DNA of 64,000 nucleotides from Terriglobia bacterium (lineage in GTDB: Bacteria; Acidobacteriota; Terriglobia; Terriglobales; Acidobacteriaceae). Of this stretch, positions 38,260 to 54,058 are shown piece by piece (the first letter of the stretch is position 1; each line of letters begins with the position of its first letter). The notes under the pieces are model-generated. The model ran no database searches and had not been told where the DNA came from. It was given only the letters and a program-made list of their open reading frames with translations. The translations under genes were made by a program, and so were the position numbers. The stretch is from NCBI GenBank assembly GCA_020072845.1, contig JAIQGF010000002.1:124001-188000 (forward strand), given 5' to 3'.

Positions 38260-38276
38260 GTGTGGCTCCTTTTTAT

Positions 38277-38444: not shown

Positions 38445-38445
38445 T

Positions 38446-38640: not shown

Positions 38641-38649
38641 AAATCCCCT

Positions 38650-39559: not shown

Positions 39560-39564
39560 GTCGT
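39560..39564. repeat. Target site duplication, left copy (GTCGT)
   Basis: GTCGT directly precedes the TG terminus at 39565; the right copy is at 54054-54058. The undisturbed target would read GAGCGCGTCGTAGCACGAAC. Confidence 0.85.
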
Positions 39565-39572
39565 TGGGGCTC

Positions 39573-39634
39573 CGGGAATTACGTGTCAGCAAAACGGGAA
39601 TTACGTGTCAGCAAACGGGAATTACGTGTCAGCA
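39573..39634 (+). repeat. Left-end transposase binding sites, three tandem 19-bp copies
   Basis: CGGGAATTACGTGTCAGCA occurs exactly at 39573-39591, 39595-39613 and 39616-39634, all in the same direction, at 22 and 21 bp steps (two helix turns). This arrangement is typical for MuA/TnsB-type end sites. Confidence 0.85.
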
Positions 39635-39756
39635 GTCGGGGCGCGATCCCGGCAAACACACAAATGCGTCGGCTTCTGAGGCCCAGCTCCAAAACCGACG
39701 ATTCAGGCGCGCGCCGCCGAATGGAACTCAGCGTGCTAATGCGCTAAAGTCCTGCC

Positions 39757-39774
39757 AAAAACCGCCGGGCGGCG
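39757..39774 (-). terminator. Terminator of the leftward late genes
   Basis: On the minus strand, GCCGC and CCGGCGG form a short GC stem followed by TTTTT, 11 bp after the tail tube stop and inside the left end of the element. Confidence 0.55.
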
Positions 39775-39784
39775 AGCGACAGCG

Positions 39785-40798
39785 TCACGCTCCCACCAGG
39801 TAGGTCGCCTGGCCGTTAATCACCGTGGCTTCGATGATCTCGGCGGCGCCCACCTTCACCAGGTCCTGGTCGCTGGCGTCGATTTGCCACGATAAATATT
39901 TGCCATCCATCACCGGCGTGGTCTTCACGTAGGCGTTGGGGAACTTAATCTTCATCTGCGCCGACGCGCCGGAGTTGACGTTGATCTGCACCTCGCGCAA
40001 CGTGTTCGCGATCATCAGCGTGCGCGGCTCGGCGCCGTCTTCCGTGGCGATCGCGCGTACCACGATCGAGAACGACGCGCGTTGCTGGTCCACGTTGGCC
40101 TGCACCGCATACATGCCGCCGCCTTGCGCTCGGTGGATCTCGATCGTGCGCGTGATTTTGAATTGGCACTGGCGTAGCCGCGGCTTGATCGAGGCCGCCG
40201 CGCCCGAGGCGCCGATCAGCACATCGGCATCGGAGCCCAGGAGCAGCGTGCGTGCCGATACCGCCGGCATCGCATTACCGAGCGCGCCATCTGTCCAGCG
40301 TCCGCTGCCGGTGAGCGAGATCTGCGCCGTCACCGGGCCGCTGTCGGGAATAGTGACCGTCAGTTCCACGCCGACCAGGTCCGGCATCCTGTACTTGATG
40401 GCCGCCGAGTCTTCGAAATAGACCGTGGTCGGCTTGGCCTGGCGCGTCGTCGAGAGCGGTTTGAAGACGTGCGTGTAAACGGCGCCGACATTGGTCACCG
40501 AATACTCTTGCAGCACCTGGGCGAGCATCCAACCGGCGAACCATTCATCGACGTGCCGCGATAACTGCAGCGAACTATCCCACTTGATGTTCTGGCGCAC
40601 GGTGGGGAACTCGTGCCCCAACCCGCTGAGCGCGCCGTCGTCCCAGAAGCTGGGCACGATGGAAGCGAACGCCTGCCCATCGAACCGGCAATGCTCCAGC
40701 AGGTTGGCATCCGGGACTGGCGTGGCATAGGCGTTCTGCCGGTTCGCGGTGAGCAGCAGGTTGCGCACCAGAATATGTTGCGGTTCATAAGTCGGCAT
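39785..40798 (-). CDS. Phage tail tube-like protein
   Basis: A 337-residue beta-rich protein resembling major tail (tube) proteins of long-tailed phages: WDSSLQLSRHVDEWFAGWML, then VELTVTIPDSGPVTAQISLTGSG, and near the end REVQINVNSGASAQMKIKFPNAY. The repeated beta blocks and a length of about 300-340 fit tail tube proteins with an extra Ig-like part. It is the last gene of the leftward late group, after the tape measure and an HTH gene, which agrees with a tail module. Family assignment is by pattern only. Confidence 0.6.
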   Translation of the reverse strand: MPTYEPQHILVRNLLLTANRQNAYATPVPDANLLEHCRFDGQAFASIVPSFWDDGALSGLGHEFPTVRQNIKWDSSLQLSRHVDEWFAGWMLAQVLQEYSVTNVGAVYTHVFKPLSTTRQAKPTTVYFEDSAAIKYRMPDLVGVELTVTIPDSGPVTAQISLTGSGRWTDGALGNAMPAVSARTLLLGSDADVLIGASGAAASIKPRLRQCQFKITRTIEIHRAQGGGMYAVQANVDQQRASFSIVVRAIATEDGAEPRTLMIANTLREVQINVNSGASAQMKIKFPNAYVKTTPVMDGKYLSWQIDASDQDLVKVGAAEIIEATVINGQATYLVGA

Positions 40799-40829
40799 CG
40801 CTCAGATCCTCTCTTTTTTCTGCGCGGTT

Positions 40830-41231
40830 TCAGCCGCGCCGGGGCGCGCGAAATTTCAGCCGCTCGTCGTCTTCTTCCTCGATCACTTGGAGCCAAAACA
40901 TCAGTTTGAGCAGCGATTCCCGCGTCACGCTTATTCCGCGGATCGTGAACCGCCGCCCCTGCAGCATGCCGTCGCTGAGCAGCCGGCGAACGATCGCAGG
41001 CGAGCAGCCGAGAATTGCGGCGGCGTCCCGGATGACAATGCGGCGCGAATCAGCATTTGACTGGGGCAGCAGCAAAGGGTCGGGGCGCAGCGTGCGGACG
41101 CGGCGAGAGGCTTTCGCGCCCAAGGTAATGCCGTTCCGTCGAATGGGGCGCGCGATCAGAAACTCCTTCCTTCCAGCCGGCGCCCGCGCACATAGGTAGC
41201 CAGCACGTCGCCGCCGCCTTGTTTGAGCCAT
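40830..41231 (-). CDS. Excisionase-type helix-turn-helix protein in the tail cluster
   Basis: The C-terminal 75 residues hold an HTH_17/MerR-like domain: RRIVIRDAAAILGCSPAIVR, then RLLSDGMLQGRRF and VTRESLLKLMFWLQ. The N-terminal part up to the tape measure stop (41156) is Arg-rich and may not be translated; the true start is uncertain, because AAGGAG lies right at the tape measure end and only a CTG follows. It stands between tape measure and tail tube. It is the second such small HTH protein on the leftward side; a role in controlling the late genes or the ends is possible. Confidence 0.5.
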   Translation of the reverse strand: MAQTRRRRRAGYLCARAPAGRKEFLIARPIRRNGITLGAKASRRVRTLRPDPLLLPQSNADSRRIVIRDAAAILGCSPAIVRRLLSDGMLQGRRFTIRGISVTRESLLKLMFWLQVIEEEDDERLKFRAPRRG

Positions 41232-44170
41232 GTCGCGAAGTTCCGCGGGTCGAGTGTGTTGATGTTCCAGATGTGCACGTCGCCGCCGACGCTCGCGCCG
41301 GCATTCATCCGATCGAGAGCACCGCGCCCGATGCGGGCGGTCGTTGGTTCATCGAAGACATATTCGCGCGGGTGCACGATTCCGGCGGCGCCTGGCGGCA
41401 GTCCCCATCCGCCGTAAGCCCCCTCGCCGGTGTAGCCGCCGCCGGCGAATTGCGGCGGCGCAAAGGCCAGCGTCGAGCGCCGTTCGCGCTCGTCTTCATA
41501 GCCCTTCAGCTCGCCCTCGATCTTGTTGACGTAGGGCTCCAGATCGCGCCCGTATTCCTTTTTGCCTTCGTCTTTGAGCTTGCGCAGTTGTTCCCAGGCG
41601 TTGCTCTTGATCTGCTCCAGATCGGCGAGCGCGGTGGGATAATCGAGCTGGAAAGATTTGAATTGCGCCTCGATCTGGTCGGCCGCCGCCTTCTGCTCGT
41701 CGGCAAACTGCCGCGCCGCCTTGGTGCGCGCACTGCCGCCGAACATTCCGCCGAAGATTCCGCCCAGCAGACCGAGGATGCCGCCGATGATCGCCCCGAC
41801 CGGTCCGCCGAACATCAGTCCCAGGAGTGCGCCGGAGCCGGCGCCGCCGAGCGTACCGGGGATCGTGCCGTATTGTTGACCGATACCGAAGCCGAGGAGT
41901 CCGCCGGCCGCGCCGGCCAGCAGACCGCCGGCCGCTCCTCCCCACATCGCCGAGGAGGAAGCGCCCCAGCTCGCGGCGCCCTGCAAACCGATATATTTGA
42001 GCCCCAGATAAGCCATCAGCCCCGCCAGACCGCCACCGATCGTGCCGGCGGTGCCTCCCAGTTTGCCTCCCAGGAAAAGGCCGGCGAGGGGAAGCATCGA
42101 TTGCAACCCGGCGATCGACAGCAGGCCGCTTCCACCTCCGCCGGCCAGCGATCCCGCGCCGCTCAATGCGGGGACTCCGGTCAGCGTGGGAATCCCGAGC
42201 AGTTGGTTCACTGCATTTACGTTGTACGACCCCGTGTTGCCGGCGCCGCCCAGCATGCCTCCAGGGCCGATTGCGCCCGCGCCGGAGAATGGAGTTAGGC
42301 CGAGGCCGATCATCGATGACGCGCCCGCCGTCGTAGAACCGCCGCCCGTTGCGCCCATGCCGAGCAATGCGGCCAGTGACGAGGTCCCGCCGCCGAACGT
42401 CGTCCCGAAGCCGGCATTGGTCATGCCCGGAACGCCGCTGGGCAGGCCCAGGATCGGTCCCAGAACTTCGCTGAGGCCGCTGCTCAAGGTGAGTTCAGCC
42501 GCAATGCGCGCCATGAACTTATGCGCGAGATTCTGGATGTAGTTCGACCAGCCGCCGCTGAACAGCTCTTCAAAAGTGCTCGTCCAGGAATCGAGGACTT
42601 TTCCGGCCGACTCCTGCCAGACGGCGGCGGTGCGCGCCGCAACGTCGGTGTCGAAAATCAGCCCACGTTGTTTCAGATCGTTGATCTCGCGAATGCGCTG
42701 CGCGGCGCTGGCATAGATTTCCATGTCGGCGCGTTCCCACGGCGGCGCGATCGCGATCGCTGCCTGCATCTCGATCTGCTGCGTTTCGAGGGCCGCCTTC
42801 TCCTGCAGCTTCGCCAGTCCCTCAATCCTTTCTTTCTTCGCCGCGTCGTTGCGCGCGTCCAGATCCAGCGACAGTTTCTTGCGCGCGGCCTGAAGCTGAT
42901 CGTAGTCCGAGGTCTCCTTCTGCTCCTTATCGAGCGCCGCTTTGTAATCCTGTAGGTTCTTGTCGCGCTGCGCCTTCTCGTCGGCGTAAAGTTTGTAGGA
43001 ACCCTCGATCTCGCGCGCGTTGGCCCGGTCCTCGATCTCCAGCGTCTGCGCGTGGAACTGATCGGTGATTTCGACTTCGGCAGCGACGCGCTTCCGCAGG
43101 GCGGCGAGGGTCTCCTGATCGGCCTGCTCGCGATAGAGAACGCGGCGCGCCTCCAAATCGGCGTCGGTGTCGCCCGTATGTTTTGCAATGTCGCCGAGCG
43201 CGGCCTCCAGCGCTTGCTCTTTCGCCAGGATCAGGTCGTCTCCCTGAAGCCAGCCCTGCACTACCTGTTCCCGCAGTTTGCGCGTCGTTTCGGCGTTCTG
43301 CTCGGCGAGCGCACCGAGCAGCCGCGAATACTTTTGATTTTCGGCAGTGACCATCGCGTCGTACTGGCCCTGCCCCATCGGGGTGGGGCCGGACAGCGCG
43401 CGACTTAGTTCATCCAGCGCGGCGCTGTGCTGCTGCGCCAGTGCGGCGTAGCCCTGCAGTCCGGCAGCGCCCGCGGCGGCCTGTGCCTTGGAGACCGCGG
43501 TGCCGGCGGCGAATTCCAGTTCGGCCATCTTCCGCAGCAGCGGATCGCGCTCCAACTCGACCTTCTGGAGCTCCTTCTCCAGCGCCACGCGTTCACTGGC
43601 CGTTGCGACCCCTTTCGCGCCGATATCGAAGAAATCTTCGGCGAGTTCATTCTCCTTTTCTTGCGCGGCGATGATCTCGTCGTTCTTTTCTCTCTGCTCC
43701 TTCATCATCGCGAGCGACTGGCGCGCGATTTCCGGAGTCCGCGGATTGCCGAGCTGCTCGAGGTTGGCTTTGACGTTGGCGGCGTAAGCCTCTTGCATCG
43801 CCTTGGTGTAGCCGCCCCATTCCAGCGCCGCGTCGGCGATCTTTCCGCCGACCACGACAACGGCCGCGGCCATCGCCGCTACTACCGAGAAGTTGAAGGC
43901 CGCCGAGAGCACGTTCCCGAAGGCTTCGCTCTGGCCGATGATCTTGGTGAGCGTGCGCGGCAAGGCGACGCCGAGAGTACTCTCCAGCAGCCGCGCCGAG
44001 TCGATATTTCTCTGGGTGTTTTTGTCGAGGCCATCCAGCGCCTGGCCGGCGCCCTGCGCGCCCGTGGCGGCGCGAGTCTTCAGGCCGTCCAGCTCGCCGC
44101 CCACCGAACGCAGCCCGGTCATGACTCCTTTGTCGTCGAGCGTGAGTTGGATTACGACTGAGGCAGCCAT
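41156..44170 (-). CDS. Phage tail tape measure protein
   Basis: A 1004-residue protein from ATG at 44170 (GAGGAG 14 bp upstream). A beta-like start (ASVVIQLTLDDKGVMTGL) is followed by a hydrophobic helix near 95-120, a long charged coiled coil (about 130-560), and a Gly/Ala-rich hydrophobic stretch (about 590-860, e.g. GGLLAGAAGGLLGFGIGQQY). A helical end with KAAADQIEAQFKSF completes it. The order coiled coil then hydrophobic Gly-rich helices is the signature of tape measure proteins, which set tail length and pass through the membrane. A real tail of roughly 150 nm would follow from this length (inference). Confidence 0.85.
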   Translation of the reverse strand: MAASVVIQLTLDDKGVMTGLRSVGGELDGLKTRAATGAQGAGQALDGLDKNTQRNIDSARLLESTLGVALPRTLTKIIGQSEAFGNVLSAAFNFSVVAAMAAAVVVVGGKIADAALEWGGYTKAMQEAYAANVKANLEQLGNPRTPEIARQSLAMMKEQREKNDEIIAAQEKENELAEDFFDIGAKGVATASERVALEKELQKVELERDPLLRKMAELEFAAGTAVSKAQAAAGAAGLQGYAALAQQHSAALDELSRALSGPTPMGQGQYDAMVTAENQKYSRLLGALAEQNAETTRKLREQVVQGWLQGDDLILAKEQALEAALGDIAKHTGDTDADLEARRVLYREQADQETLAALRKRVAAEVEITDQFHAQTLEIEDRANAREIEGSYKLYADEKAQRDKNLQDYKAALDKEQKETSDYDQLQAARKKLSLDLDARNDAAKKERIEGLAKLQEKAALETQQIEMQAAIAIAPPWERADMEIYASAAQRIREINDLKQRGLIFDTDVAARTAAVWQESAGKVLDSWTSTFEELFSGGWSNYIQNLAHKFMARIAAELTLSSGLSEVLGPILGLPSGVPGMTNAGFGTTFGGGTSSLAALLGMGATGGGSTTAGASSMIGLGLTPFSGAGAIGPGGMLGGAGNTGSYNVNAVNQLLGIPTLTGVPALSGAGSLAGGGGSGLLSIAGLQSMLPLAGLFLGGKLGGTAGTIGGGLAGLMAYLGLKYIGLQGAASWGASSSAMWGGAAGGLLAGAAGGLLGFGIGQQYGTIPGTLGGAGSGALLGLMFGGPVGAIIGGILGLLGGIFGGMFGGSARTKAARQFADEQKAAADQIEAQFKSFQLDYPTALADLEQIKSNAWEQLRKLKDEGKKEYGRDLEPYVNKIEGELKGYEDERERRSTLAFAPPQFAGGGYTGEGAYGGWGLPPGAAGIVHPREYVFDEPTTARIGRGALDRMNAGASVGGDVHIWNINTLDPRNFATWLKQGGGDVLATYVRGRRLEGRSF

Positions 44171-44174
44171 TGCT

Positions 44175-44510
44175 TCACGCAGCTCCTCCGCTGGGCTGTG
44201 CCGGCGAGGCGTCGGCGAGTTGCTCGCCCTCAGACCGCAGATCGACCACCGGCTGTAAAGAGCAGCGCGGAGAATGGCGACGATGCGCCGCTGCGATCGT
44301 CGAGGCGTCACTCCGATTGGGCAGAAGGTTGGCGTCGATGCCAGTCACGCCGGGGCGGCCTTGCGCCGCCGCGAGCAAGTTGAGGTTCGCGGGTTTGCTG
44401 ATCACCGCTTCGCCTTTGGCGCCGCAGCCTTCACACGACCAGCGAAACAGACGCATCGGCGGGCCGGCGAGCGGGGCGGGCAGGTAGGTCGAGACATCAA
44501 TAACCGGCCC
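44175..44510 (-). CDS. Small protein before the tape measure, downstream reading frame
   Basis: About 112 codons ending 4 bp before the tape measure start: VIDVSTYLPAPLAGPPMRLF, RWSCEGCGAKGEAVISKPAN and LNLLAAAQGRPG are protein-like, with a CxxC pair, while the upstream continuation of this frame is Arg-rich and not protein-like. A stand-alone start would be ATG at 44456. Its position just before the tape measure is where long-tailed phages encode tail assembly chaperones. It lies in the -1 frame relative to the overlapping gene at 44402-44605, the same relation as the G/GT frameshift pair of lambda. Confidence 0.45.
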   Translation of the reverse strand, partial: GPVIDVSTYLPAPLAGPPMRLFRWSCEGCGAKGEAVISKPANLNLLAAAQGRPGVTGIDANLLPNRSDASTIAAAHRRHSPRCSLQPVVDLRSEGEQLADASPAQPSGGAA

Positions 44511-44605
44511 CTTGGGACGGGGGCTGTGCCTGCGGGCGTATCGGGCACGTCGGGATCGGGGCGCTCTTTGTTGCAAGGTTCCTCCACCGTGGAATTCGAC
44601 GGCAT
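44402..44605 (-). CDS. Small protein before the tape measure, upstream reading frame
   Basis: From ATG at 44605 this frame reads MPSNSTVEEPCNKERPDPDV then PDTPAGTAPVPRG, a natural acidic N-terminus, and then turns into Pro/Arg/Cys-rich sequence until its stop at 44402. The natural-looking part ends near 44515, where the -1 frame becomes protein-like. This suggests one product made by a -1 shift, or one gene split by an indel. No classic X-XXY-YYZ slippery heptamer was found in the overlap; CCCAAGG near 44515 is the nearest. Confidence 0.4.
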   Translation of the reverse strand: MPSNSTVEEPCNKERPDPDVPDTPAGTAPVPRGRLLMSRPTCPPRSPARRCVCFAGRVKAAAPKAKR

Positions 44606-44646
44606 CTGGAATGCCCGTTCGAGGTGAAGGACCCCGCCCATCTTTA

Positions 44647-44721
44647 GGTTTCGCGTAGCCTGCGAAACCCGGCACCCGCGTAGCCTGCGGAAGCCAAGGG
44701 GCGCGCGCTAGCAGGCGCCCC
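44647..44721. repeat. Cluster of three hairpins between late genes
   Basis: GGTTTCGC and GCGAAACC (44647-44654 and 44662-44669) close a GTAGCCT loop. CCGC and GCGG (44676-44679 and 44687-44690) close the same loop. GGGGCGC and GCGCCCC (44698-44704 and 44715-44721) form a third stem 18 bp after the stop of the 44740 gene. They may attenuate transcription between the two parts of the late cluster. Confidence 0.6.
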
Positions 44722-44739
44722 TCTACCACTGAAAAGCTC

Positions 44740-45615
44740 CTAGACGAACACTTGCAGCTTGTTCGTGCCGCCTACCGGAGGCTGCGGATCGCGCACGATG
44801 GCGGCTTCCTCCGCCTTAGCTTCGGGCTCTGCCTCTTCAATCAGCAGGCCCTCCTTGACGTAATAGGCCGCGTGCTCGGGCCGCAGATATAAGAGGTCGC
44901 CGCCCTTCACTGCCAGGCCGCGCACATCGAAACGGGAACCCGCCTTTGCTCGATAGGCGCGGCGATCAGACGGCACCGGCTCGCCGGGTAACAAGTGAGC
45001 CTCGATCGCTGCCAGCGCCTGGTCGAATATGCGTGCCCCACCGCGCCCGAAGGATTCCAGGGCTTGGTTGGGGCCGTACTCGATTCGCACCGGCTCGATG
45101 TATTGAGCAGTCACCCCAACGCCCACGCGCTGAAGCCGCGGGTCGAATTGCGCGAGCGCGTGTGCGACCGCGGCCTTGTCGGCGGTCCATCCGGCCAGCT
45201 CGCTCTCCAGATCGCGTATGAGTTTCACGATGCGCGCGGGGCGATCCTTGTCGGCGCGTGCCGCAATAAATGTTCGGAGCTGCTCGCGCTCCGCCAACCG
45301 TTTGGCCAATGCCAGGGCGGGGCGCAAAACCTGAACTTTCTTTTCGATCTCGGCGAGGGCCGCATCGTCTTGACCATCTTCGCGACGCGCCTTTGCGATC
45401 TCCGCCTCGACGTCATGAAGCGTTTTCTGCGCAGTCGAGTTCTTGTCAACTCGCGCGGAGAGGGCCAGTTCCTGGCGCTTCCGCTCCAGCCCAGCGATGT
45501 GCCCGCGAGCCGCATTGCGCGTATCGCTTATGCCTGCCAGCGCTGACTCCCACTGACCGATTTCTTTTTCCATCTCCTGAATCGTTGCCACGTCTCCTCC
45601 TCCTGTGCTGCTCAT
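44740..45615 (-). CDS. Element protein of unknown function with coiled-coil N-terminus
   Basis: A 291-residue protein. The first 150 residues are charged coiled coil (EKEIGQWESALAGISDTRNA, then long Glu/Lys/Ala/Arg helices). The second half is mixed (VGVGVTAQYIEPVRIEYGPN and RGLAVKGGDLLYLRPEHAAY) and the tail is Glu/Ala-rich. I recognise no family. The coiled-coil start could be a scaffold or tail component; it is the second gene of the leftward late group. ATG start follows a GGAGGAGAC-type ribosome site. Confidence 0.6.
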   Translation of the reverse strand: MSSTGGGDVATIQEMEKEIGQWESALAGISDTRNAARGHIAGLERKRQELALSARVDKNSTAQKTLHDVEAEIAKARREDGQDDAALAEIEKKVQVLRPALALAKRLAEREQLRTFIAARADKDRPARIVKLIRDLESELAGWTADKAAVAHALAQFDPRLQRVGVGVTAQYIEPVRIEYGPNQALESFGRGGARIFDQALAAIEAHLLPGEPVPSDRRAYRAKAGSRFDVRGLAVKGGDLLYLRPEHAAYYVKEGLLIEEAEPEAKAEEAAIVRDPQPPVGGTNKLQVFV

Positions 45616-45646
45616 TTCCGCTGCTCGTCTTTCTTCGTCTTCGGAC

Positions 45647-46318
45647 CTAGCCGGCTGTCAGAACCGTGCAAACATCGCCGACCTTCAACTGCCCCACGTT
45701 TGCGCCCTTCGCGTCCGCTGAAACGTCATCCAATTTCGTGATCGTGATGGTGCCCAACGGGAGATAAATCTTGCGGATTACCTGCTTCTGCGCAGGGTCC
45801 GTGATCTCGCGATCCAACCGCTGCACGGAAAGGCGGTCCCCCACCTTCAGGCCCGCGGCGGTGCCGGCATTGAGGATCACCTGGCCGTCTTGAATCGCCG
45901 CCACAAGGATCTGGCGCATCGCTCCATCGGCGCGCGTGAACGGCGCGCCCTCGGCATACACTTCGCGGAGTGCCGTGCCGTAATCAATGCCCTTCTCGCT
46001 GGCGCGCTGCTGCGCGGCCTCAGCAAAAATCACGGACTGAAGATCAACATTGCCATTGCGCACGGCGCGGCTGAGAGCAGCCCGCGTGGCGTCTTCCCGA
46101 TCGGCTTGGCGCAAAGCCTCGCCGAATGTGATGCCGCGTTCTCTGGCGAGTTCTTGGGTCGCCTCGCAGCGGACATCGATCACGTTCCCGCGCGTCTCGC
46201 CAAATCTCGTCACCTGGCGCACCTCCTGCGCTTCGTCGTCCTTGAGTGCCCTGCGTAGGATCGTCTCCCCGGAGAGCCATTCCGCTTGTTCCTGTTCTAT
46301 CTCGACGAACTTAGCCAT
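45647..46318 (-). CDS. Element protein with internal repeat and FlgT/CsgG-like C-terminal part
   Basis: A 223-residue protein. Two related segments, ATQELARERGITFGEALRQA (about 53-72) and AAQQRASEKGIDYGTALREV (about 102-121), show an internal duplication of a helical motif that is also seen in phage scaffold/protease-type proteins. The C-terminal 80 residues (ILNAGTAAGLKVGDRLSVQR and on) resemble the small beta domain at the end of FlgT and of some CsgG-like secretion proteins. The combination inside a Mu-like element is unusual. Function is unknown. A 6-bp hairpin (46365-46380) lies 47 bp upstream of the start. Confidence 0.55.
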   Translation of the reverse strand: MAKFVEIEQEQAEWLSGETILRRALKDDEAQEVRQVTRFGETRGNVIDVRCEATQELARERGITFGEALRQADREDATRAALSRAVRNGNVDLQSVIFAEAAQQRASEKGIDYGTALREVYAEGAPFTRADGAMRQILVAAIQDGQVILNAGTAAGLKVGDRLSVQRLDREITDPAQKQVIRKIYLPLGTITITKLDDVSADAKGANVGQLKVGDVCTVLTAG

Positions 46319-46792
46319 GCTTTTTCGCCCTCCGGAGCCGAGCTGACCCCGTCAAAACACCCCCGCGCGACACGTCGCGCAGCCCCGTGGAGGCGTCGGC
46401 GGGAAATTCAGGACATGCGGTGCCACTGTTGCAAGTTTGGTGCACCTTTTCAGGATTTGCTTGCCTTGGGGCTGGCATCGTGGGCCGCGATTCCTGTGCC
46501 CTTCCCGGCACGCGCCCGGAGTGCAGTAATGACGCATGCCGGTCCCGACGTTTTCCGTCGCACGGCGGCGAGGAGGCCGACACCGCCGCGCGCTGCTCCT
46601 CACGGAGTTCAGGACGTGAGGAAGGAAAACGACCCGGGACGGCATGCGCCTTCAGGAGGAACAACGGGCCGACAAACGCCGACAAAATTCGAGCGCCCCG
46701 CGGGAAAAAGACCATCACGGCAGAGACGTGCTGGCGAAAAACCCGCGGGCCGCTGAGCGCGCCTGGCGCTGGTAAGCGGCCAGGTGCACAGT
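46319..46792. other. 474-bp gap in the late cluster without a convincing gene
   Basis: Frames exist on both strands, but their products are Arg/Ser/Pro/Cys-rich and lack ribosome sites. A GCGCGA-CACG-TCGCGC hairpin is at 46365-46380. A control region or small RNA for the late genes is possible. Confidence 0.5.
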
Positions 46793-47014: not shown

Positions 47015-47110
47015 GGCACGAAACAGTACTGCCGCCGCCGCGGGAGCGCTGTGATCGTTGGGCGGTACGCATCAGGTTAGTAACGTCGGCGGTGATGGCG
47101 GCGATCCTCA

Positions 47111-48076
47111 TCAGTGCTTCGCCTCGCCGGCGGCTGCACTGAACCACGCGATCATGCGGCCGATCACGGTGCAGCCATCGGTCGGCTTAATATTCTCGCG
47201 GACTCTCTCGCGCTCGCGCTCGTAAAGTCCCTCTTCGTTCGGCTCTGGATCGTCTGCCGCAGGGAGTTCCTCCAGTCCCTTCTCTCGTCTGATTCGTCTC
47301 CACTTCCACTGCACACTGTCCTGAAAGAACTGCTTACGCGCTTGCGAGTGCTTGTACCCGATCACAACCGGCTCATGTTTGAAAGAGCCCAGCGGACCCA
47401 GCGCGGCACCCCATAGAAAGCGATCCCAAGGCAGCTCCGAGAACTTCAGGAGTCCCATGCACGGACCCCAGTGCCATTCCCCCACACCAAGCGAAGCCGG
47501 TAACACCGAGGGGTCGAGGTGAACCAACACCACCTTGTTCCATAAAGATTGGAGCTTGGTACTGGAGCGATCCACCACCACGATGTCGCCGGGGGCAAAC
47601 ACAATCCCTTCCGCGTCGCGGTCTACACGTAAGGCCACAGTGGAGGCGCGGTTGACCACGCGGGCTGCGGAGAACCGAAATACTTGGCCACTTTCGAGCT
47701 TTGCCTGAGGCCCGCGCTCCGCTTCATCGATTGAGAGCAGCGGAAGCTCGATCATCTCGCCGGGCATCGCCGGCAGCCCGCGCGCCTTCAGTCGTTCTTC
47801 GACAACAGATTCGACTGTTTCTATGTCCTGGCCCGCCTGCTCCCAGAACCACATTGAGTACTCGCGCATGGCCGATCTCGCTGCCAAGTTGCCCATTCGC
47901 ATGTAGGTTTCCGGCGTTGGGGTGGCGCGGCCCTTTTCCCAGGACGAGACAACTGGCTGAGTGACGTCGAAGGCTTCCGCAAAGTCCTCTTGGGTGGTTT
48001 CTTTCCCCATCGCCTGCCTAAGGGCGAGGATCATCTCCCCCGGTGCCTTCTTCTCGGCTTTGCGCTCGCGTTTCAT
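47111..48076 (-). CDS. XRE-type phage repressor with S24-like C-terminal domain
   Basis: A 321-residue protein. An N-terminal XRE helix-turn-helix (about 12-60: LRQAMGKETTQEDFAEAFDV then TQPVVSSWEKGRATPTPETY) is followed by an S24-like domain (about 120-200) with VFAPGDIVVVDRSS and WNKVVLVHL. In LexA/CI-type peptidases a Ser-Met pair normally precedes the GD; here the place reads DAEGIVFAPGD, so the catalytic Ser seems absent and RecA-induced self-cleavage is doubtful. The C-terminal 100 residues are an added helical region. It is divergent from the early genes, with a shared 49-bp control region. Confidence 0.8.
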   Translation of the reverse strand: MKRERKAEKKAPGEMILALRQAMGKETTQEDFAEAFDVTQPVVSSWEKGRATPTPETYMRMGNLAARSAMREYSMWFWEQAGQDIETVESVVEERLKARGLPAMPGEMIELPLLSIDEAERGPQAKLESGQVFRFSAARVVNRASTVALRVDRDAEGIVFAPGDIVVVDRSSTKLQSLWNKVVLVHLDPSVLPASLGVGEWHWGPCMGLLKFSELPWDRFLWGAALGPLGSFKHEPVVIGYKHSQARKQFFQDSVQWKWRRIRREKGLEELPAADDPEPNEEGLYERERERVRENIKPTDGCTVIGRMIAWFSAAAGEAKH

Positions 48077-48081
48077 TGTGC

Positions 48082-48116
48082 TTGACTCACCTCGCCATCA
48101 GTGGTACAAATATCAC
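48082..48116 (+). promoter_or_regulatory. Early promoter with overlapping dyad operator
   Basis: TTGACT (48082-48087), a 17-bp spacer, and TACAAA (48105-48110) form a strong rightward promoter. GTGGTACAAATATCAC (48101-48116) is a dyad of the form GTGnTA...TAnCAC covering the -10 box, a likely repressor site. The repressor starts at 48076 in the other direction. Confidence 0.65.
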
Positions 48117-48125
48117 GTTATTCCC

Positions 48126-48530
48126 ATGGCCGCTATTCCCAAAACACGGGAAAATTTCGGAATCGGGCGCTGCTCCCGCACGGAAGACCTCGATGCCGAA
48201 CTGCGCCGGCTCATCAGCCGCATGATCAAGGACTCGCCGAAAAAGCGGAAGGAAATTGCGGCGGAAATGAGTGTACGCCTGCCGCGACCGGTCAGCGAGT
48301 CGATGCTGAATGACTTTACCCGCCCTGGGAAAAAGGCGGCGCGGTTCCCGGCGGTATTCGTTCCGGTCTTCTCCCAAGTCGTCGGTGACGACAGGCTTCA
48401 GCGCTACCTGCTCGGCCCACGCCTCCGTAAATTGCTGGATTTTGCTGAAAGGGAACTCCGCGCCAGGAGCGATCAGCGCGAACGCGATCGGCTCAGGCGA
48501 GAATTGTTACAAGAGGATGGCAAGCCATGA
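48126..48530 (+). CDS. CII-like early regulatory protein
   Basis: A 134-residue basic protein from ATG at 48126, the first ATG after the early promoter; an upstream frame extension would overlap the repressor and promoter and is rejected. The central region (KKRKEIAAEMSVRLPRPVSE, then SMLNDFTRPGKKAARFPAVF and VPVFSQVVGDDRLQRYLLG) resembles phage regulators of the CII/CP76 kind, with an HTH and a VPxFxxVxGD block. The C-terminus is a charged helix. As the first early gene opposite the repressor it takes the place of Ner in Mu. Its stop overlaps the next start. Confidence 0.65.
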   Translation: MAAIPKTRENFGIGRCSRTEDLDAELRRLISRMIKDSPKKRKEIAAEMSVRLPRPVSESMLNDFTRPGKKAARFPAVFVPVFSQVVGDDRLQRYLLGPRLRKLLDFAERELRARSDQRERDRLRRELLQEDGKP

Positions 48531-49027
48531 CCGCACCTCGCCAGCAAACGTCGAAGCCGCGCACCGCGGCCGAGCGGCTGACCGCGATCGTGCCTCTGGT
48601 CGAATACCTAACCCGAAAGGCTGCTGGGCGCGCGCCGGCGGTCACGCTAGCGGACGGTTCCGTGCCGCGCACGTCAGAAGATGTTGCACACGACATTGCA
48701 GGCCAGCGGGGTATTTCACGCGGTAGTGTGTGGCGGTGGTACATGCTTTTCGAGCGAGCCGGCGGTTGCTCCGCCTATGCCGCCCTGGCGCGCCGCACTC
48801 GCTCCGACAAAAACAGGCGCAGGTATTTCGAAGCTCGTCCTTATGTTGCGGAGCTGCTCGCGCGTCTGGTCCTCCGAAAAAAACTCTCCCCCAAAGCCGC
48901 GCACGATTCGATCCGGAGTCACATTTCTCAGCCTCCTTGTCTTTCAACCGTGCTCGCTGAAGTACGGCGGCTTCGGCCGCGCTCCCGCGCCGCGCGCCGC
49001 CACGAAAGAAAAGGCGGTCGGGCGTGA
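48527..49027 (+). CDS. Stand-alone transposase-type DNA-binding protein
   Basis: A 166-residue basic protein. Its centre (about 68-135: SVWRWYMLFERAGGCSAYAA, then LARRTRSDKNRRRYFEARPY and KKLSPKAAHDSIRSH) closely parallels a part of the MuA-like transposase encoded next (TIFRWVRRFRHFGLAGLADG, then IRADKNKSRWFQEHPEQ and ERLSCQLTYEAM). So it seems to be a paralogue of the transposase's DNA-binding region without the catalytic domain. It overlaps its neighbours by 4 bp on both sides. It could bind the same end sites and limit or organise transposition (inference). Confidence 0.7.
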   Translation: MTAPRQQTSKPRTAAERLTAIVPLVEYLTRKAAGRAPAVTLADGSVPRTSEDVAHDIAGQRGISRGSVWRWYMLFERAGGCSAYAALARRTRSDKNRRRYFEARPYVAELLARLVLRKKLSPKAAHDSIRSHISQPPCLSTVLAEVRRLRPRSRAARRHERKGGRA

Positions 49028-51063
49028 GTGAACTTTGGCTCAACCACGAAACCCTGATTCGGCTGACGAACTGGTCCGATCGCACAATCAGGGAGAAGCG
49101 TCAACATAATGAGGTTGTGTTTCGCGAGCGTCCTGGCCGCGAGCGCAACGGCCGGCGCGCGTTCGAATACGCGGCCTCCTCTTTGCCGCCCGAGGGACAG
49201 CGAAAGATGTACCGGCTCCAGCTCGCCGCGTCCACCGCCGCCGACACGACTCAGGCGCTGACAACACCGGCCGCGCAGTCCGCGTTGTTCCTGCCATCGG
49301 ACGCGGAGGCCGGCAACGCGCGGATCGCACTTAGCCCCGAGCAGCGGAAAATCGCCGAGCAACGGTTGGCTCCGGTCAAGACAATGATGGAAGTAAAGCG
49401 GCGGCTGCACGCGCGCTCGCCGATGACCATCACCTTGGGCGACGGGCGGATGATCGACACGGAACGGGCATGGGCCGATTACCTGGGCGAGCAGCACGAC
49501 GTTTCGGGGCGGACTATTTTTCGATGGGTCCGCCGCTTCCGCCACTTCGGCCTGGCCGGGCTGGCCGATGGCATCCGCGCCGACAAAAACAAATCGCGTT
49601 GGTTTCAGGAGCACCCAGAGCAAGCCGTTTTCGCGCAGCGCAAGTACTTCCATGAGCGCCTCTCCTGTCAGCTCACCTATGAAGCCATGAAGCGCGAGTT
49701 CGGCGACGCCCTGAGGCGCAAATGCAAAGACAGCGACCGCGTTTGCGATCTGAACTATGACACCGTTCGCCAGTTTCTTAACGCGCAGCCGAAGCCGCTG
49801 GCGATCATGGCGCGCGAAGGCGAAGCCGAATACCACGAGCGTTGCGCGCCCTACATTGTTCGCGGCTACATCGATCTGCGGGTGAACCAGTGCTGGTGCT
49901 CAGACCACATGACGCATGACGTGTGGGTGCAGAACGCGGGCTACTTCCCCGGCATCGGCCACGACGATGCTGTGCGTCCGTGGCTCTCCTGCTGGATGGA
50001 CCTGCGGTCGAGAAAAATCGTTGGCGCCGTCTGGTATCACACGCCCAGCTCGTACACCGCGGGTTCTGCGCTGCGCCTGGCGCTGGTGGAGAACGGCGTC
50101 CCAGAGACAGGTTATCTCGACAACGGGGCTGATTACAAAAAGCTGGGGCGTGAGAATTCGCTGGAGCCCGAAACCGAAGGCGTGCTCGCCCGGCTCGGCA
50201 TCCAGATCACGAACGCGATCCCCTACAACGCGCAAGCGAAGCCGGTGGAATCGTGGTTCGGAAACCGGCTCCACGAGCGCTTCGACAAACTGTGGAAGGG
50301 CTTCTACTGCGGCAGTTCACCGACCACGCGCCCCGAAGATTGCAGCGAGAACCTCGCGCGTCACAAGGCATGGAGAGAAGGGAAGGCGCCGACGTCACCG
50401 CTGCCGCCGGCGAGCGAATTTGTTGTGCTGGCCCGCGACTTCATACGCGAATACAACAACGACCTTCCGCATCGCGGGCTCGGCATGGAGGGACGCACGC
50501 CGCAAGCTGTGTTCGACGCGCTGCTGCCTGCGGACCAGCGCAAGCCGGTAGCCGACACCGCCGCGCTGGACGCCCTGCTCTGGGATCGGCAAAAACGGCG
50601 CGTATCCGAGGGCGGCTGTGTCCAGATTTACAACGCGCGATATGAGCCCGCCGACAACGATTCGCGCGTGCGCCTTTTTATGGAAATCGAACACGACATC
50701 CTGGTCGCATGCGACCCGACCAACCTTGGCGAAGCGCTTGCGCTTGACCAGGACGGCCGCCTGATCGGCCGGCTGGTGGCACAGAAGCTGATGGCGCAAG
50801 GTCCGGTTTCACACGAAGACATCAAGGTCCGCATGAAGCTCCAGCGGAAGCTGAGGCGCGCGACGAAGGATACGATCGCCATCCTCGGCTACGGAATCGA
50901 GAGTGAACTCGACGTGCGGCGGCGCCGCGCCGGCATTGGCCCTGCGGCGGCCGCGGTCGCCATGCCGCGCCAGCTCCCCGCGGCGGTGGGCGGCAGTCTC
51001 GCGGTGCGAGAGCCCGTCGAGTTCATTGACGACCTGGGCGAGCGGTTTGCAGGGAGGGACTGA
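49024..51063 (+). CDS. MuA-like DDE transposase
   Basis: A 679-residue transposase with an N-terminal HTH (about 5-50), further DNA-binding part (about 140-225), an RNase H-like catalytic core (about 280-430) and a C-terminal beta-barrel and tail. The catalytic triad is visible: Asp294 (WCSDHM), Asp366 (YLDNGADYK) and Glu409 (AKPVESWFGNRLHERFDK), with spacing like MuA/Tn552. It cuts the element ends and joins them to target with a 5-bp stagger, matching the GTCGT duplication. GTG start overlaps the previous stop (GTGA), and the MuB-like gene follows 3 bp after the stop. It appears intact. Confidence 0.93.
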   Translation: MSELWLNHETLIRLTNWSDRTIREKRQHNEVVFRERPGRERNGRRAFEYAASSLPPEGQRKMYRLQLAASTAADTTQALTTPAAQSALFLPSDAEAGNARIALSPEQRKIAEQRLAPVKTMMEVKRRLHARSPMTITLGDGRMIDTERAWADYLGEQHDVSGRTIFRWVRRFRHFGLAGLADGIRADKNKSRWFQEHPEQAVFAQRKYFHERLSCQLTYEAMKREFGDALRRKCKDSDRVCDLNYDTVRQFLNAQPKPLAIMAREGEAEYHERCAPYIVRGYIDLRVNQCWCSDHMTHDVWVQNAGYFPGIGHDDAVRPWLSCWMDLRSRKIVGAVWYHTPSSYTAGSALRLALVENGVPETGYLDNGADYKKLGRENSLEPETEGVLARLGIQITNAIPYNAQAKPVESWFGNRLHERFDKLWKGFYCGSSPTTRPEDCSENLARHKAWREGKAPTSPLPPASEFVVLARDFIREYNNDLPHRGLGMEGRTPQAVFDALLPADQRKPVADTAALDALLWDRQKRRVSEGGCVQIYNARYEPADNDSRVRLFMEIEHDILVACDPTNLGEALALDQDGRLIGRLVAQKLMAQGPVSHEDIKVRMKLQRKLRRATKDTIAILGYGIESELDVRRRRAGIGPAAAAVAMPRQLPAAVGGSLAVREPVEFIDDLGERFAGRD

Positions 51064-51066
51064 CCA

Positions 51067-52104
51067 ATGGCTCTTTCCGTCGCATTCAAAGCCGCGCTCG
51101 CAGAGCGTCCCCAGCCCGATGAAACCCGGCTGCGGGCGCGCATGCAGACCTTCATGGCGGCGCACGGCCTCACCGACCGCGACCTCGGAATGCTCACCGG
51201 CTATTCCCGCGTCGCCATCTCGCACTTCCGGCTCGGCCGCTATGGCCACGTCTCCGCCAACCAGTCGGCGCTCATGGACGCGATCGACGCTGCCATCTCC
51301 GACGACAAAGAGGATCTCGACGACGAGCCCACCGGCAAGCTCTACACCCACACCCTGGATTACAAATTCCTGCGCCAAGCATTTTATTCGGCGCTCAACA
51401 ATGGCTTCGCCTACCACGTTCACGGCAATCCGGGAACGCAGAAGTCGTATATCGGCCGCGCGCTGAAGAACGAAGTGGAGGCGGCCGAAGCGAACCTGAA
51501 CGGCAAGGCGCGCCGCGTCATCTGGGTTGAACCGCTCGACCAGATCGCGCCGCTGGAATTCTTGAAACAGATTGCGGCCGGATGCGGGCTGTTCCCCAGC
51601 GGCAGCAAAACCCAGCTCGTGCTGAAGATCCGCTACGCGCTCGCCGGCCGGCGCTCGCTGCTGGTGCTCGATGAAGCGCAGCGCCTTTCGCCCGCCTGCC
51701 TGGAGGCCATTCGCCCACTGCTCGATCACAAGCCCTATGTCGGCATGCTCTTCATGGGCTCGCACAACCTGAACCTCACCTTCGAGCGCTTCGACCTGGC
51801 GCAGTGGCACGACCGGATTCGCAAAGGCAAGGAACTCCCCGGACTGAGCGAAGAAGAATCGCAGGTCATCTTGCGCGCGGAAATGCCGTGGCTGAATGCT
51901 GCCGAGCGCAAGGACCTGATCGAGCGTTCCCGGCGCGACGATCTCGGGGCGCTGTTGCTCATGAGCCGTGGCCGCCGCCGGCGCCCGCTGCCCGCGGCGG
52001 ACGAGATCCCTACCTACATCAACGCGCGCCGTCTCTTCGGGGCCATCCAGGTATCGCAACAGAGGCGCGCCGCCCGCAGCGAACGCGCGGATGCGCGAGA
52101 CTAA
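51067..52104 (+). CDS. MuB-like AAA+ target-selection ATPase
   Basis: A 345-residue protein with an N-terminal HTH (about 30-65, GLTDRDLGMLTGYSRVAISH) and an AAA+ domain: Walker A GNPGTQKS (120-127), Walker B SLLVLDEAQ (197-205), and a sensor-like MGSHN (about 228). MuB binds target DNA as ATP filaments, activates MuA and gives target immunity. Size, the HTH plus ATPase plan and the position right after the transposase agree. The ATP-site Lys126 and Asp202-Glu203 are present. The C-terminal 60 residues are Arg-rich. Confidence 0.92.
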   Translation: MALSVAFKAALAERPQPDETRLRARMQTFMAAHGLTDRDLGMLTGYSRVAISHFRLGRYGHVSANQSALMDAIDAAISDDKEDLDDEPTGKLYTHTLDYKFLRQAFYSALNNGFAYHVHGNPGTQKSYIGRALKNEVEAAEANLNGKARRVIWVEPLDQIAPLEFLKQIAAGCGLFPSGSKTQLVLKIRYALAGRRSLLVLDEAQRLSPACLEAIRPLLDHKPYVGMLFMGSHNLNLTFERFDLAQWHDRIRKGKELPGLSEEESQVILRAEMPWLNAAERKDLIERSRRDDLGALLLMSRGRRRRPLPAADEIPTYINARRLFGAIQVSQQRRAARSERADARD

Positions 52105-52114
52105 AGGAGACACG

Positions 52115-52657
52115 ATGCCATCCGCCGCGCAACTTCGAACCCTGCAGACGCTCTATAAGATGTGCGCCCCTCGATCCCTCGACTTCGGCGGCGCCGATCC
52201 GCGCGCGGAGCGCCTGGCATGGGCAACGAAGGCGATCGGGCGTAAGATCGATTCCTTTTCCGATCTTAGTGACCGCGAAGCCGGAACCCTGATCGACATG
52301 CTGAAGGGCCTGGCCGGGCAAGCGGTTGAACCGCCGAAGCGCTGGATACGTCCACGCGATCGGCATCACGCACGCGCGTTCGCAACGCACGGTCGCCGCG
52401 ATCGGAGCGGCAATGACGAGGTGATGGCTTCAGCCGGCGATTTGGCCGCGGTCGAAGAGATGTGGCAGCGCCTCGGATGGACGCGAGCGCAGTTCGAGGC
52501 GTGGCTCACCGGCCCGAGTTCGCCGCTGGCGCCGAATTCAGGCACGGCGCTGCGCACCTGGTCGCAATTGCAGCCCGTGCGATGGGCGCTGAAGGCCCTG
52601 CTCAAGCGCGCTGGGTTGTGGAGGTCCAGCGCGAAGCGCAGCCGGCGCGCGGCGTAG
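52115..52657 (+). CDS. gemA: GemA-like (Mu gp16) early protein
   Basis: A 180-residue protein from ATG at 52115, with AAAGGAGA 7 bp upstream. The N-terminal half (LRTLQTLYKMCAPRSLDF, RAERLAWATKAIGRKIDSFS, DLSDREAGTLIDMLKGLAGQ) matches the GemA/DUF1018 family, which in Mu alters host gyrase and gene expression. The later part is a basic helical region. Its early-operon place after MuB is the same as in Mu-like phages. Confidence 0.75.
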   Translation: MPSAAQLRTLQTLYKMCAPRSLDFGGADPRAERLAWATKAIGRKIDSFSDLSDREAGTLIDMLKGLAGQAVEPPKRWIRPRDRHHARAFATHGRRDRSGNDEVMASAGDLAAVEEMWQRLGWTRAQFEAWLTGPSSPLAPNSGTALRTWSQLQPVRWALKALLKRAGLWRSSAKRSRRAA

Positions 52658-52809
52658 ACTTCAGACTGAAAGCGGCTCCGCCGGGTGCATGAAACACCCG
52701 ACGAAGCCTGGCGGGAAGCGTGGGATTGGCACGCAACACGTTGACCGCATTTTAATCTACTTAGCGTGCCTCAGAGGCGGCGCCCCGCGCGCCGCACGGA
52801 GGCAACAAT

Positions 52810-53619
52810 ATGAAGCCGAGTCGGAAAGAGAAGAAAACCGCAAAACCCCCAACCCCGCGAAAGACGCGCCTGGCGCACCATTTCATCGCAAAACTCCCGC
52901 CGCCGGGTCCTGCTACGGGTGAAAAAGTCAGGCGGCGATCATTGAAGGCCGGCGATACACAGTGGGAAATCACAGCGCGGCCCGACGCTGAGTATGACTA
53001 CTTCGACATCGGGATTCGCGAACCGAACGGAGACGTGCTGCTGATCGGACAAACCTGGAACGAGGACGATGCCAAGCTGCTGATCGCTGCCGGGGCTGCA
53101 CTAGGAGCGGCCAGGAATTCGGACAAGGGCGAGATGCTCCAACTGCGGCACTCGATCGATGGCGTCATCGATTTATGGCCGGCGCGGTTCGCAAAGAAAA
53201 ATCTCCTCCCGAACAAGATCGTGGATCACATCTACTTCGCACACTTCCTCACTCATGCTGTGCTGCCGGCGCAAGTGGCACAGCGCACGACGGGCGTACC
53301 GGCGAGCCTGCTGATCGCGGAGGCAGTGACGGAGTTCGGCACCGAAGGGCGTGAGATCGGGGTCCATTCAGACGGGGACTTTAAGATTGGCCGGGTTGGC
53401 ATCGATGCGTGGTTTCTCGCCTTGGCGAAGCGTCGCAAAAAAACAGTGGCGCTGGCGCCAGCGCTCGCGGTTGCGGGCGACCGCTCCGCCTTCATCGAAG
53501 AGATTCGAAAATGTGAGGGCGTGTGGGAACCTCGGGTCCGCGGCGGGATCCTGCAAACGCTCGCCTACTACGATCTCCAGGACTGCGACCTGCCGAGGCC
53601 AGGACGACTGGAAGATTAG
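52810..53619 (+). CDS. Glucosaminidase-like protein, possible endolysin
   Basis: A 269-residue protein with a Lys/Pro-rich N-terminus (about 1-40). From about 135 a region resembles the FlgJ/Atl type glucosaminidase start: FAHFLTHAVLPAQVAQRTTG, then VPASLLIAEAVTEFGTEG, where Glu in AVTEFG fits the catalytic position. The part between (about 45-125) has no clear match. No signal peptide is seen. As an endolysin it would be unusual to find it at the end of the early group and not with late genes. The match is to a short segment only, so it remains uncertain. A strong terminator follows. Confidence 0.5.
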   Translation: MKPSRKEKKTAKPPTPRKTRLAHHFIAKLPPPGPATGEKVRRRSLKAGDTQWEITARPDAEYDYFDIGIREPNGDVLLIGQTWNEDDAKLLIAAGAALGAARNSDKGEMLQLRHSIDGVIDLWPARFAKKNLLPNKIVDHIYFAHFLTHAVLPAQVAQRTTGVPASLLIAEAVTEFGTEGREIGVHSDGDFKIGRVGIDAWFLALAKRRKKTVALAPALAVAGDRSAFIEEIRKCEGVWEPRVRGGILQTLAYYDLQDCDLPRPGRLED

Positions 53620-53644
53620 ACCGCCGGACCGTGTCTCCGGTGAT

Positions 53645-53673
53645 GCCGGCGCTTCCGCGCCGGCTTTTTTTTT
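53645..53673 (+). terminator. Strong rho-independent terminator of the early operon
   Basis: GCCGGCGC (53645-53652) and GCGCCGGC (53657-53664) form a perfect 8-bp stem with a TTCC loop, followed by nine T. It ends the rightward early transcript inside the element. Confidence 0.95.
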
Positions 53674-53732
53674 GCCGAACCAGCCAAGGTATCACGTCCT
53701 CGAAAAGTTGCATTTTTCGTCCCACGAGCACC

Positions 53733-53854
53733 GCCGTTGGATTGCCGCTTGTCTGCCGCGATTTTCGACCGTTGCCGCCTTGTAACTCCCGTGCGCTCAG
53801 ACGGTTATAGGCTCCGCACGGGCGTCAGAAGGCGTTGCCGTTGGATTGCCGCTT
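53733..53854. repeat. 18-bp direct repeat near the right end
   Basis: GCCGTTGGATTGCCGCTT occurs at 53733-53750 and exactly again at 53837-53854, 104 bp apart. It differs from the 19-bp end sites and could be a second protein-binding site, such as an enhancer or accessory site. The segment 53674-54053 holds no gene. Confidence 0.7.
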
Positions 53855-53909
53855 TACAATTCTCTAAGTTGTTGATTCTGTAGGAAACGATGTGCCGAAA
53901 TAGCTGAGT

Positions 53910-54045
53910 TGCTGACACGTAATTCCCGTTTTGCGGTTCGGCGGTTCATCCGACTTCCTGCCTCACAGGTCACTGATTCAGCGGCGCTTAACCCGCGAAG
54001 TCCCGCCGTATCCCTCCACCTCCCGCTGCTGACATACAATTCCCG
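53910..54045 (-). repeat. Right-end transposase binding sites, two copies
   Basis: TGCTGACACGTAATTCCCG (53910-53928) is the exact inverse of the left sites. TGCTGACATACAATTCCCG (54027-54045) matches at 16 of 19 positions and lies 8 bp from the end, as at the left. The pair is 117 bp apart, unlike the tight left array; no good third copy is seen between them. Confidence 0.82.
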
Positions 54046-54053
54046 TACTCACA

Positions 54054-54058
54054 GTCGT
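54054..54058. repeat. Target site duplication, right copy (GTCGT)
   Basis: GTCGT directly follows the CA terminus at 54053 and matches the left copy at 39560-39564. Confidence 0.85.

Follow-up and report, generated by a model that had tools for sequence, protein, structure and literature searches.

A compact element with Mu-type ends in an Acidobacteriaceae genome and its family of possible phage satellites

The window analysed here is a stretch of 64,000 nucleotides from a bacterium of Terriglobia, a class of Acidobacteriota, and of the family Acidobacteriaceae (GenBank assembly GCA_020072845.1, contig JAIQGF010000002.1, positions 124,001 to 188,000). It contains a 14,489-bp element (39565-54053) with Mu-type transposition genes and a partial set of virion genes. 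We found that this element belongs to a recurrent family of compact elements with hallmark genes in Acidobacteriota. It does not look like a one-off deletion, and the family may be one of satellites that parasitise larger jumping phages. For the element itself, we lean towards a phage satellite that depends on a helper and uses Mu-type transposition to move. An earlier account made from the letters of the window (hereafter the sequence-only reading) had described the bounds of the element but could not reveal that its cargo is a partial virion gene set or that compact elements with hallmark genes recur.

The window element is a precisely bounded Mu-type insertion. Its termini are TG...CA, and an exact 5-bp target-site duplication (GTCGT) flanks it on both sides. 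Three copies of a 19-bp end site (CGGGAATTACGTGTCAGCA) stand at the left end in steps of 22 and 21 bp, two inverted copies stand at the right end, and 8 bp separate the outermost site from the terminus on either side (Table 1). In 100 shuffles, there was no match to the 19-bp site. The end scan used a joint score (maximum 19) for equal 5-bp flanks, TG/CA termini, and similar 19-bp sites at offset 8. The ends of the element scored 16, whereas 300 random pairs of 3-kb regions from the rest of the window gave 15 once, 13 twice, and otherwise 12 or less. Thus, the bounds given in the sequence-only reading were confirmed, and so was the 8-bp offset at both ends. The positions and steps of the sites were also recovered, but the outer right copy has three mismatches, which that reading had left unstated. 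In addition, the element has both a MuA-family transposase and a MuB-type ATPase, and it can probably jump like phage Mu.

The element is present as a single copy in its genome of 27 contigs and 4,230,756 bases. The insertion site was comparable in three same-genus genomes (G488, G511, and G073). In G488, both flanking blocks lie 131 bp apart, that is, without the element (162 bases of the joined window flanks were unmatched). In G511 and G073, the flanking blocks are ~830 and ~730 bp apart, too short to hold it. The empty site in G488 agrees with the earlier proposal of an intact insertion rather than a decayed island. Neither sequence continuous through one of the ends nor copies with other ends were seen for this one copy and the three genomes compared. 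Compact elements with other 5-bp duplications were found among relatives, but no further copy in the element's own genome.

The family survey covered 398 genomes of the same family, and two candidates were scored per genome, so that the counts are lower bounds. MuA matches were found in at least 35 of the 398 genomes, many of them weak, and the tape-measure protein in at least 24. A phylum sample, used for leads only, gave a MuA match in 21 of 396 genomes. On contigs holding both genes, the distance from MuA to the tape-measure gene was ~2-6 kb in G000 (the genome of the window), G436, G647, and G511, and ~19-26 kb in G405, G420, G171, G743, G614, G434, G696, and G735. The compact group was picked for a short distance of this kind, for a gene encoding a coiled-coil-like protein (CC), or for an absent terminase. 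It has eight members, namely the window element, those of G436, G739, G494, G528, and G647, and parts of elements in G511 and G249. The full-length set includes five phages (G405, G171, and parts of G420, G743, and G696). Contigs 12, 108, and 117 of G073, contig 260 of G511, contig 15 of G614, and other short or unclear MuA loci were counted neither as compact nor as terminase-bearing.

Three other compact elements have exact 5-bp duplications of their own: those of G436 (14,887 bp, CGGTG, end-scan score 15), G739 (13,428 bp, ATGGC, score 12), and G494 (15,713 bp, GCTGT, score 15). In a blind end scan, each of the four exact-duplication pairs was the best in its region, with runners-up of 9 or less. 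The full-length phages G405 and G171 measure 43,512 bp (score 12) and 41,866 bp (score 14), and the four compact sizes are 0.31-0.38 of these; the end scan gave no ends for G743. The ends of G739 and G405 are also backed by repeated sites. The G436 element has three left sites with the same 22/21 spacing as in the window, and by eye the right-end sites are a pair ~117 bp apart in both elements. Thus, the small size that had seemed unusual from the sequence alone is shared by elements of 13.4-15.7 kb. The G528 element (~10.9 kb) gave no exact duplication in the scan, and by eye CCCTG flanks it one base out of register. The G647 element lies on a 14,918-bp contig and has end-like repeats, with no exact duplication resolved. 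Only part of the element is on the contig read for G511 and G249, and the bounds used for G249 (L037:1-6715) are arbitrary. Altogether, three of the eight compact elements are without resolved ends.

The gene contents of the two sets differ. Some profiles of this comparison contain sequences that were scored, so that part of the matches arise by construction; the tests of CC and of the MuA copy were repeated without that. Terminase was found in 0/8 compact elements and 5/5 full-length phages, and the zero is partly by choice, because the compact group was picked partly for absent terminase. MuF and fibre genes were likewise found in 0/8 and 5/5. CC was present in seven of the eight compact elements and in no full-length phage. 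With leave-one-out CC profiles, all seven were recovered (E 4.9e-9 to 5.9e-44), and the full-length phages gave no match. A stand-alone copy of the MuA end-binding part was also present in seven compact elements (all except that of G249, where MuA is truncated) and in none of the five phages, and a MuA profile made from full-length phages alone found the same seven copies (E 3.1e-10 to 6.9e-35). Furthermore, 13 additional loci with terminase and MuA had neither CC nor a second MuA frame within ~10 kb on either side of MuA. Thus, both genes were absent from all 18 terminase-bearing relatives, 13 of which were seen only near MuA. The compact elements therefore have a conserved gene set of their own, distinct from that of the putative helpers, and all eight are compact and without the genes to complete and pack virions, a property for which the group was partly chosen. 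The virion genes that they do carry are few and vary. The tape-measure gene is present in 6/8 compact elements (not in G528 and G249) and in all five phages, and a protease or scaffold-like gene in 6/8 (window, G436, G739, G494, G528, and G249). Among the eight, there is a portal gene in G436, and capsid genes are found in G647 and G511 only.

The CC gene also led to other elements. A profile of five CC proteins (from G000, G511, G249, G739, and G528) matched 9 of the 398 family genomes. The matches outside the profile set were G494, G073, G414 (twice), and, weakly, G673 (E 8.1e-5, on a 3-kb contig too short to judge). The G494 element, found through CC, is a complete compact element. In G073, CC and a broken tape-measure gene lie on a contig that begins at the locus, so that MuA is not seen there. 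A nine-row CC profile matched 9 of 382 genomes from the order, all of the same family; eight of these had contributed to the profile, and G436 was the one match from outside it (E 1e-14). None of 12 whole IMG/VR records matched the CC profile, but this search had no positive control and shows little. In addition, contig C15 of G414 has two integrase elements (L179/L201 and L180/L200) with CC, a tape-measure gene, a tail protein, and a tyrosine integrase. They lie beside tRNA-Gln and tRNA-Arg genes, with 46- and 40-bp tRNA repeats ~17.4 and ~18.4 kb apart. G414 was the only genome in which this CC/tape-measure pair was seen on integrase elements.

Gene order, phylogeny, and selection were compared between the two sets. 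In the full-length phages (G405, G171, G420, G743, and G696), the order is protease/capsid, tube, chaperone, tape measure, and fibre. In the window element, the tube gene follows the tape-measure gene; in G436, portal and protease genes follow the tape-measure and tube genes; and in G739, the protease gene follows the tape-measure gene. The phage order is kept in G494, G647, and G511. Thus, structural genes are reordered in three of the six elements that hold two or more of them. A tree of 37 MuA proteins has eight compact rows (G436, G647, G511, two of G073, G739, G528, and the window), which need six changes and are scattered among full-length phages, so that the transposition genes are not one clade. 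The window MuA is sister, with support 100/100, to that of the IMG/VR record L144, which is 41.8 kb long and includes genes for MuF, capsid, and tape measure. For the end-binding region, a tree places six of the nine stand-alone copies (window, G511, two of G073, G494, and G528) in one group, although the support of 91/75 is moderate and under the strong-support mark of the program; the MuA proteins of these six are not one group. The copies of G436, G647, and G739 fall elsewhere, two of them on long branches. These trees suggest either that satellite genes of one common stock travel on exchanged transposition genes or that capture took place repeatedly. Between G511 and G073, the ratio of nonsynonymous to synonymous substitution rates (dN/dS) was 0.22 for MuA and 0.12 for MuB. 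It was 0.32-0.56 in ten other pairs (tape measure, CC, repressor, stand-alone MuA, glucosaminidase-like protein, and tube) and 0.04 for the host control infC, and these values are rough because synonymous changes are many in most pairs. As far as such values go, they argue against free decay, but they show weaker constraint than in a core gene.

We prefer the satellite reading because exact duplications recur, hallmark genes are shared, the CC/tape-measure pair also occurs on integrase elements, the gene order departs from that of the phages, and dN/dS is low. We infer helper dependence, packaging, and redirection of assembly, the last from the virion-like genes only. In the chromosome, the element would be kept repressed. 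During growth of a full-length Mu-like siphophage in that cell, the element would amplify by replicative transposition with MuA and MuB, and the helper's terminase would pack the element's DNA into helper-made particles. Meanwhile, the tape-measure, tube, coiled-coil, and scaffold-like proteins would enter or redirect the assembly of the helper virion, possibly giving particles sized for a genome one third as long. By analogy, genomes of one-third size point to smaller heads, as in P4 and the phage-inducible chromosomal islands (PICIs). The stand-alone MuA end-binding copy may tune the element's own transposition or compete at the helper ends.

Several observations weigh against the satellite reading. 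The window's own genome yielded no other MuA relative and hence no Mu-like helper. With the window MuA, tape-measure, and MuB proteins as single queries, IMG/VR gave no relatives. Some family members are decayed: MuA is truncated in G249, MuB of G528 is split in two frames and its tape-measure gene is missing, and the tape-measure gene of G073 is broken. The G647 element has no CC gene, and one of the two integrase elements (G414a) carries a terminase gene. Furthermore, the end-scan score of 12 in G739 and G405 was matched by 16 of the 300 background pairs, and the 269-aa glucosaminidase-like protein of the window element has no Pfam match.

The main rival explanation is a defective prophage, that is, a full-length Mu-like phage that lost most of its head, packaging, and fibre genes by internal deletion and kept its ends and transposition genes. 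The polyphyly of the compact MuA genes is what would be expected from independent repeated deletions, the genes that remain are phage genes, and the G249, G528, and G073 members are partly broken. However, deletion fits poorly with CC and the stand-alone MuA copy being common to compact elements and not found in the 18 terminase-bearing relatives. It also sits badly with the narrow size range of the four exact-duplication elements and with dN/dS below 0.6 in the tested pairs. The reordered structural genes count against deletion as well, because a simple internal deletion leaves the order unchanged. Thus, we regard this explanation as unlikely, though it deserves to be taken seriously.

Two other explanations seem less probable still. 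The element could be a phage-exclusion device, whose partial structural proteins act as dominant-negative poisons of a superinfecting phage and which spreads only by transposition and cell division. The small and varying subsets of virion genes would suit such a role, and immune systems directed against structural parts of phages or against the assembly of virions, some of them on prophages or PICIs, are described in the portions of two papers that we drew on (PMC11364771, PMC10884400). Nevertheless, exclusion would seem to leave the sizes, and the presence in several genera without a vehicle, unexplained, and we give it a small chance. The tail tube-like and tape-measure genes could also belong to a small phage that is self-sufficient or to a tail-like particle (tailocin or gene-transfer agent). 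We consider this very improbable, as the profiles found no terminase, portal, capsid, or fibre gene in the window element and other members carry different virion genes.

The element resembles several known systems in part. With Mu and Mu-like siphophages it shares MuA/MuB/GemA-type genes, TG/CA ends, the 5-bp duplication, and several sites per end, but it has about one third of their size and lacks terminase, MuF, and fibre genes. Ends of this type are present in the full-length relatives G405 and G171, and the divergent layout, with transposition genes one way and structural genes the other, is also found in full-length relatives. P4-like satellites, PICIs, and PICI-like elements (PLEs) are likewise compact chromosomal elements without terminase and have repressor-like and small helix-turn-helix (HTH) regulators. 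A size about one third of that of the helper (here putative) is a further likeness. These satellites differ in having a site-specific integrase with attachment sites, whereas the window element has a MuA-type transposase and MuA-type ends, together with tape-measure and tail genes, and its helper is putative. No integrase match, apart from the MuA-type transposase, was found among the scanned proteins of the window element. As for transposases, the closest solved structures to the window MuA by profile are TnsB chains (E 3.9e-28), before MuA itself (E 1.4e-9); however, its neighbours are MuB-like, GemA-like, and phage genes.

In the portions of the literature covered here, published satellites redirect capsids or packaging, form capsids and carry a terminase, or, in one putative case, have no structural genes (PMC10803314, PMC11389934, PMC10690885, PMC6092414, PMC10689766). 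The capsid-forming PICIs and the Streptomyces satellites MulchRoom and MiniFlayer also have some virion genes of their own, but in the part of the source used these include capsid and packaging genes with terminase (PMC10690885). The elements studied here have no terminase, and their commonest virion genes are those for the tape measure and the protease or scaffold-like protein (6/8 each). PmCI172 is a satellite whose helper is a Mu-like phage, but it is described as a PICI, and no self-transposing satellite is named in the portion consulted (PMC6092414). Such a satellite was likewise undescribed in the portions used of seven papers (PMC10803314, PMC11389934, PMC10690885, PMC6092414, PMC9239132, PMC10689766, PMC13232261). 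A literature search for phage satellite, MuA, and transposable together gave no match, and no satellite with a MuA-type transposase was among the literature matches listed, most subscription journals being outside the search.

We tentatively suggest a bolder proposal, to which we give less than even odds. The elements could be a first family of phage satellites with replicative Mu-type transposition and exploit their helper largely via the tail, with a module of CC and tape measure, on transposase or integrase vehicles, redirecting assembly so that helper particles carry the satellite. A hijack of the capsid only was rejected, as capsid genes occur in just two of the eight compact elements. 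A satellite amplified by transposition would need neither an attachment site nor a separate replication origin and could scatter through genomes. In addition, acidobacteria would gain a satellite-helper system to study, and the CC/tape-measure pair makes tail-based piracy directly testable.

The features of the window element are listed in Table 1. The rightward set includes a regulator, the stand-alone MuA-like protein, MuA, MuB, a GemA-like protein, and a diverged glucosaminidase-related protein. The leftward set includes a repressor-like protein, a small HTH protein, the scaffold-like protein, CC, the tape measure, a small HTH-like protein, and a tail tube-like protein. The sequence-only reading had called the MuA-, MuB-, and GemA-like genes intact. 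The MuA and MuB frames are indeed uninterrupted; the GemA-like protein is weak alone, yet it matches GemA-type genes of relatives. With profiles made from relatives, neither terminase nor portal, capsid, MuF, or fibre genes were found in the element, so that it is not a complete Mu-like phage.

Table 1. Features of the window element (window positions)
Feature	Position	Strand	Evidence
GTCGT, left copy of target-site duplication	39560..39564	.	
Left terminus TGGGGCTC, 8 bp to first site	39565..39572	+	
End site L1	39573..39591	+	exact 19-mer
End site L2	39595..39613	+	exact 19-mer
End site L3	39616..39634	+	exact 19-mer
Tail tube-like protein, 337 aa	39785..40798	-	Phage_tube_2 E 4.5e-5, under curated cut-off; 42% identity to tube-position gene of full-length phage G405
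Small HTH-like protein, 133 aa	40830..41231	-	weak: HTH_17 E 0.02, excisionase E 0.012
Tape-measure protein, ~1014 aa (open frame to 44311)	41156..44200	-	phrog_24, E 3.2e-7
CC, coiled-coil-like protein, 291 aa, hallmark of compact elements	44740..45615	-	no Pfam/PHROG match at E 0.01
Scaffold-like protein, 223 aa, related to head-maturation protease genes of relatives	45647..46318	-	phmmer E 2.5e-6 to G436 protein; PROT profile E 1.1e-8
Small HTH protein (HTH_17/MerR-like), 73 aa	46793..47014	-	relative in G511
Repressor-like HTH_3 protein, 321 aa	47111..48076	-	
Early regulator (open frame 47961-48530)	48117..48530	+	phrog_2345, E 1.5e-15
Stand-alone MuA N-terminal paralogue, 166 aa, hallmark of compact elements	48527..49027	+	phrog_310 weak
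MuA-like transposase, 679 aa	49024..51063	+	phrog_310, E 2.4e-89; frame uninterrupted
MuB-like AAA protein, 345 aa	51067..52104	+	phrog_296, E 1.5e-19; frame uninterrupted
GemA-like protein (open frame 51968-52657)	52118..52657	+	Pfam E 0.0033, under curated cut-off
Diverged glucosaminidase-related protein, 269 aa	52810..53619	+	no Pfam match at E 0.1
Inner right end site	53910..53928	-	exact 19-mer
Outer right end site	54027..54045	-	3 mismatches
Right terminus, TGTGAGTA read inwards	54046..54053	-	
GTCGT, right copy of target-site duplication	54054..54058	.	

In MuA, the acidic residues D294, D366, and E409 are invariant in the alignment and are probably catalytic. MuB has a Walker A-like motif at 120 and a Walker B-like motif at 198. 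The G436 counterpart of the scaffold-like protein matches phrog_976 (E 4.1e-53). A single-sequence structure model of CC is helical over residues 4-120 (mean pLDDT, the predicted local distance difference test score, 52.7) and poor past residue 141, and profile searches of solved structures with CC and with the stand-alone MuA copy gave no meaningful match. A profile of the 269-aa protein and its G511 relative weakly reaches PF01832-type genes in some full-length phages. The protein was rejected as a lysin, since Pfam scans gave no support for an intact enzyme.

Among 50,697 phage records, none matched the tape-measure protein, and 150 matched MuA, without any of these covering 80% of the query; a MuA alignment search of IMG/VR found 18 loci. 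The full-length Mu-like siphophages G405 (L095-L097), G171 (L035/L084-L086), and G420 (L114-L116) share the divergent layout, with transposition genes one way and the run from terminase to fibres opposite. G249 probably carries more than one related element: on its contigs L036, L037, L107, and L108, some ends fall within tape-measure genes, and parts of MuA are on two separate contigs. One Acidobacteriaceae genome, PLXE01 (palsa_357), has eight contigs with MuA relatives (L127, L129, L131, L132, L134, L135, L139, and L140), several running to the contig end, which suggests a multicopy element. The window's genome has a lone 19-mer resembling the end site with two mismatches (G000:C5:61787-61805; L038:5788). 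It was rejected as a second element, the surrounding genes matching none of the element's proteins, and it is perhaps a relic or a chance match. The left flank of the element (34284-39446) is what we take to be the infC end of a pheT-pheS-rplT-rpmI-infC run, and the right flank (55308-58054) is presumably a gene followed by pyrG and kdsA.

Finally, Mu-type loci were seen beside defence genes in G514, with MuA proteins 45% identical to the window MuA. On contig 109 (L093:4228-11993), for which the end scan gave no ends, a MuA/MuB pair lies beside Lamassu LmuA/LmuB. On contig 111 (L094:962-12668), such a pair lies beside SspB, SspC, SspD, and BrxL, and candidate ends (duplication CATGA, score 14) bound 12,820 bp with the Ssp genes inside. 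These loci are possible Mu-type defence transposons.

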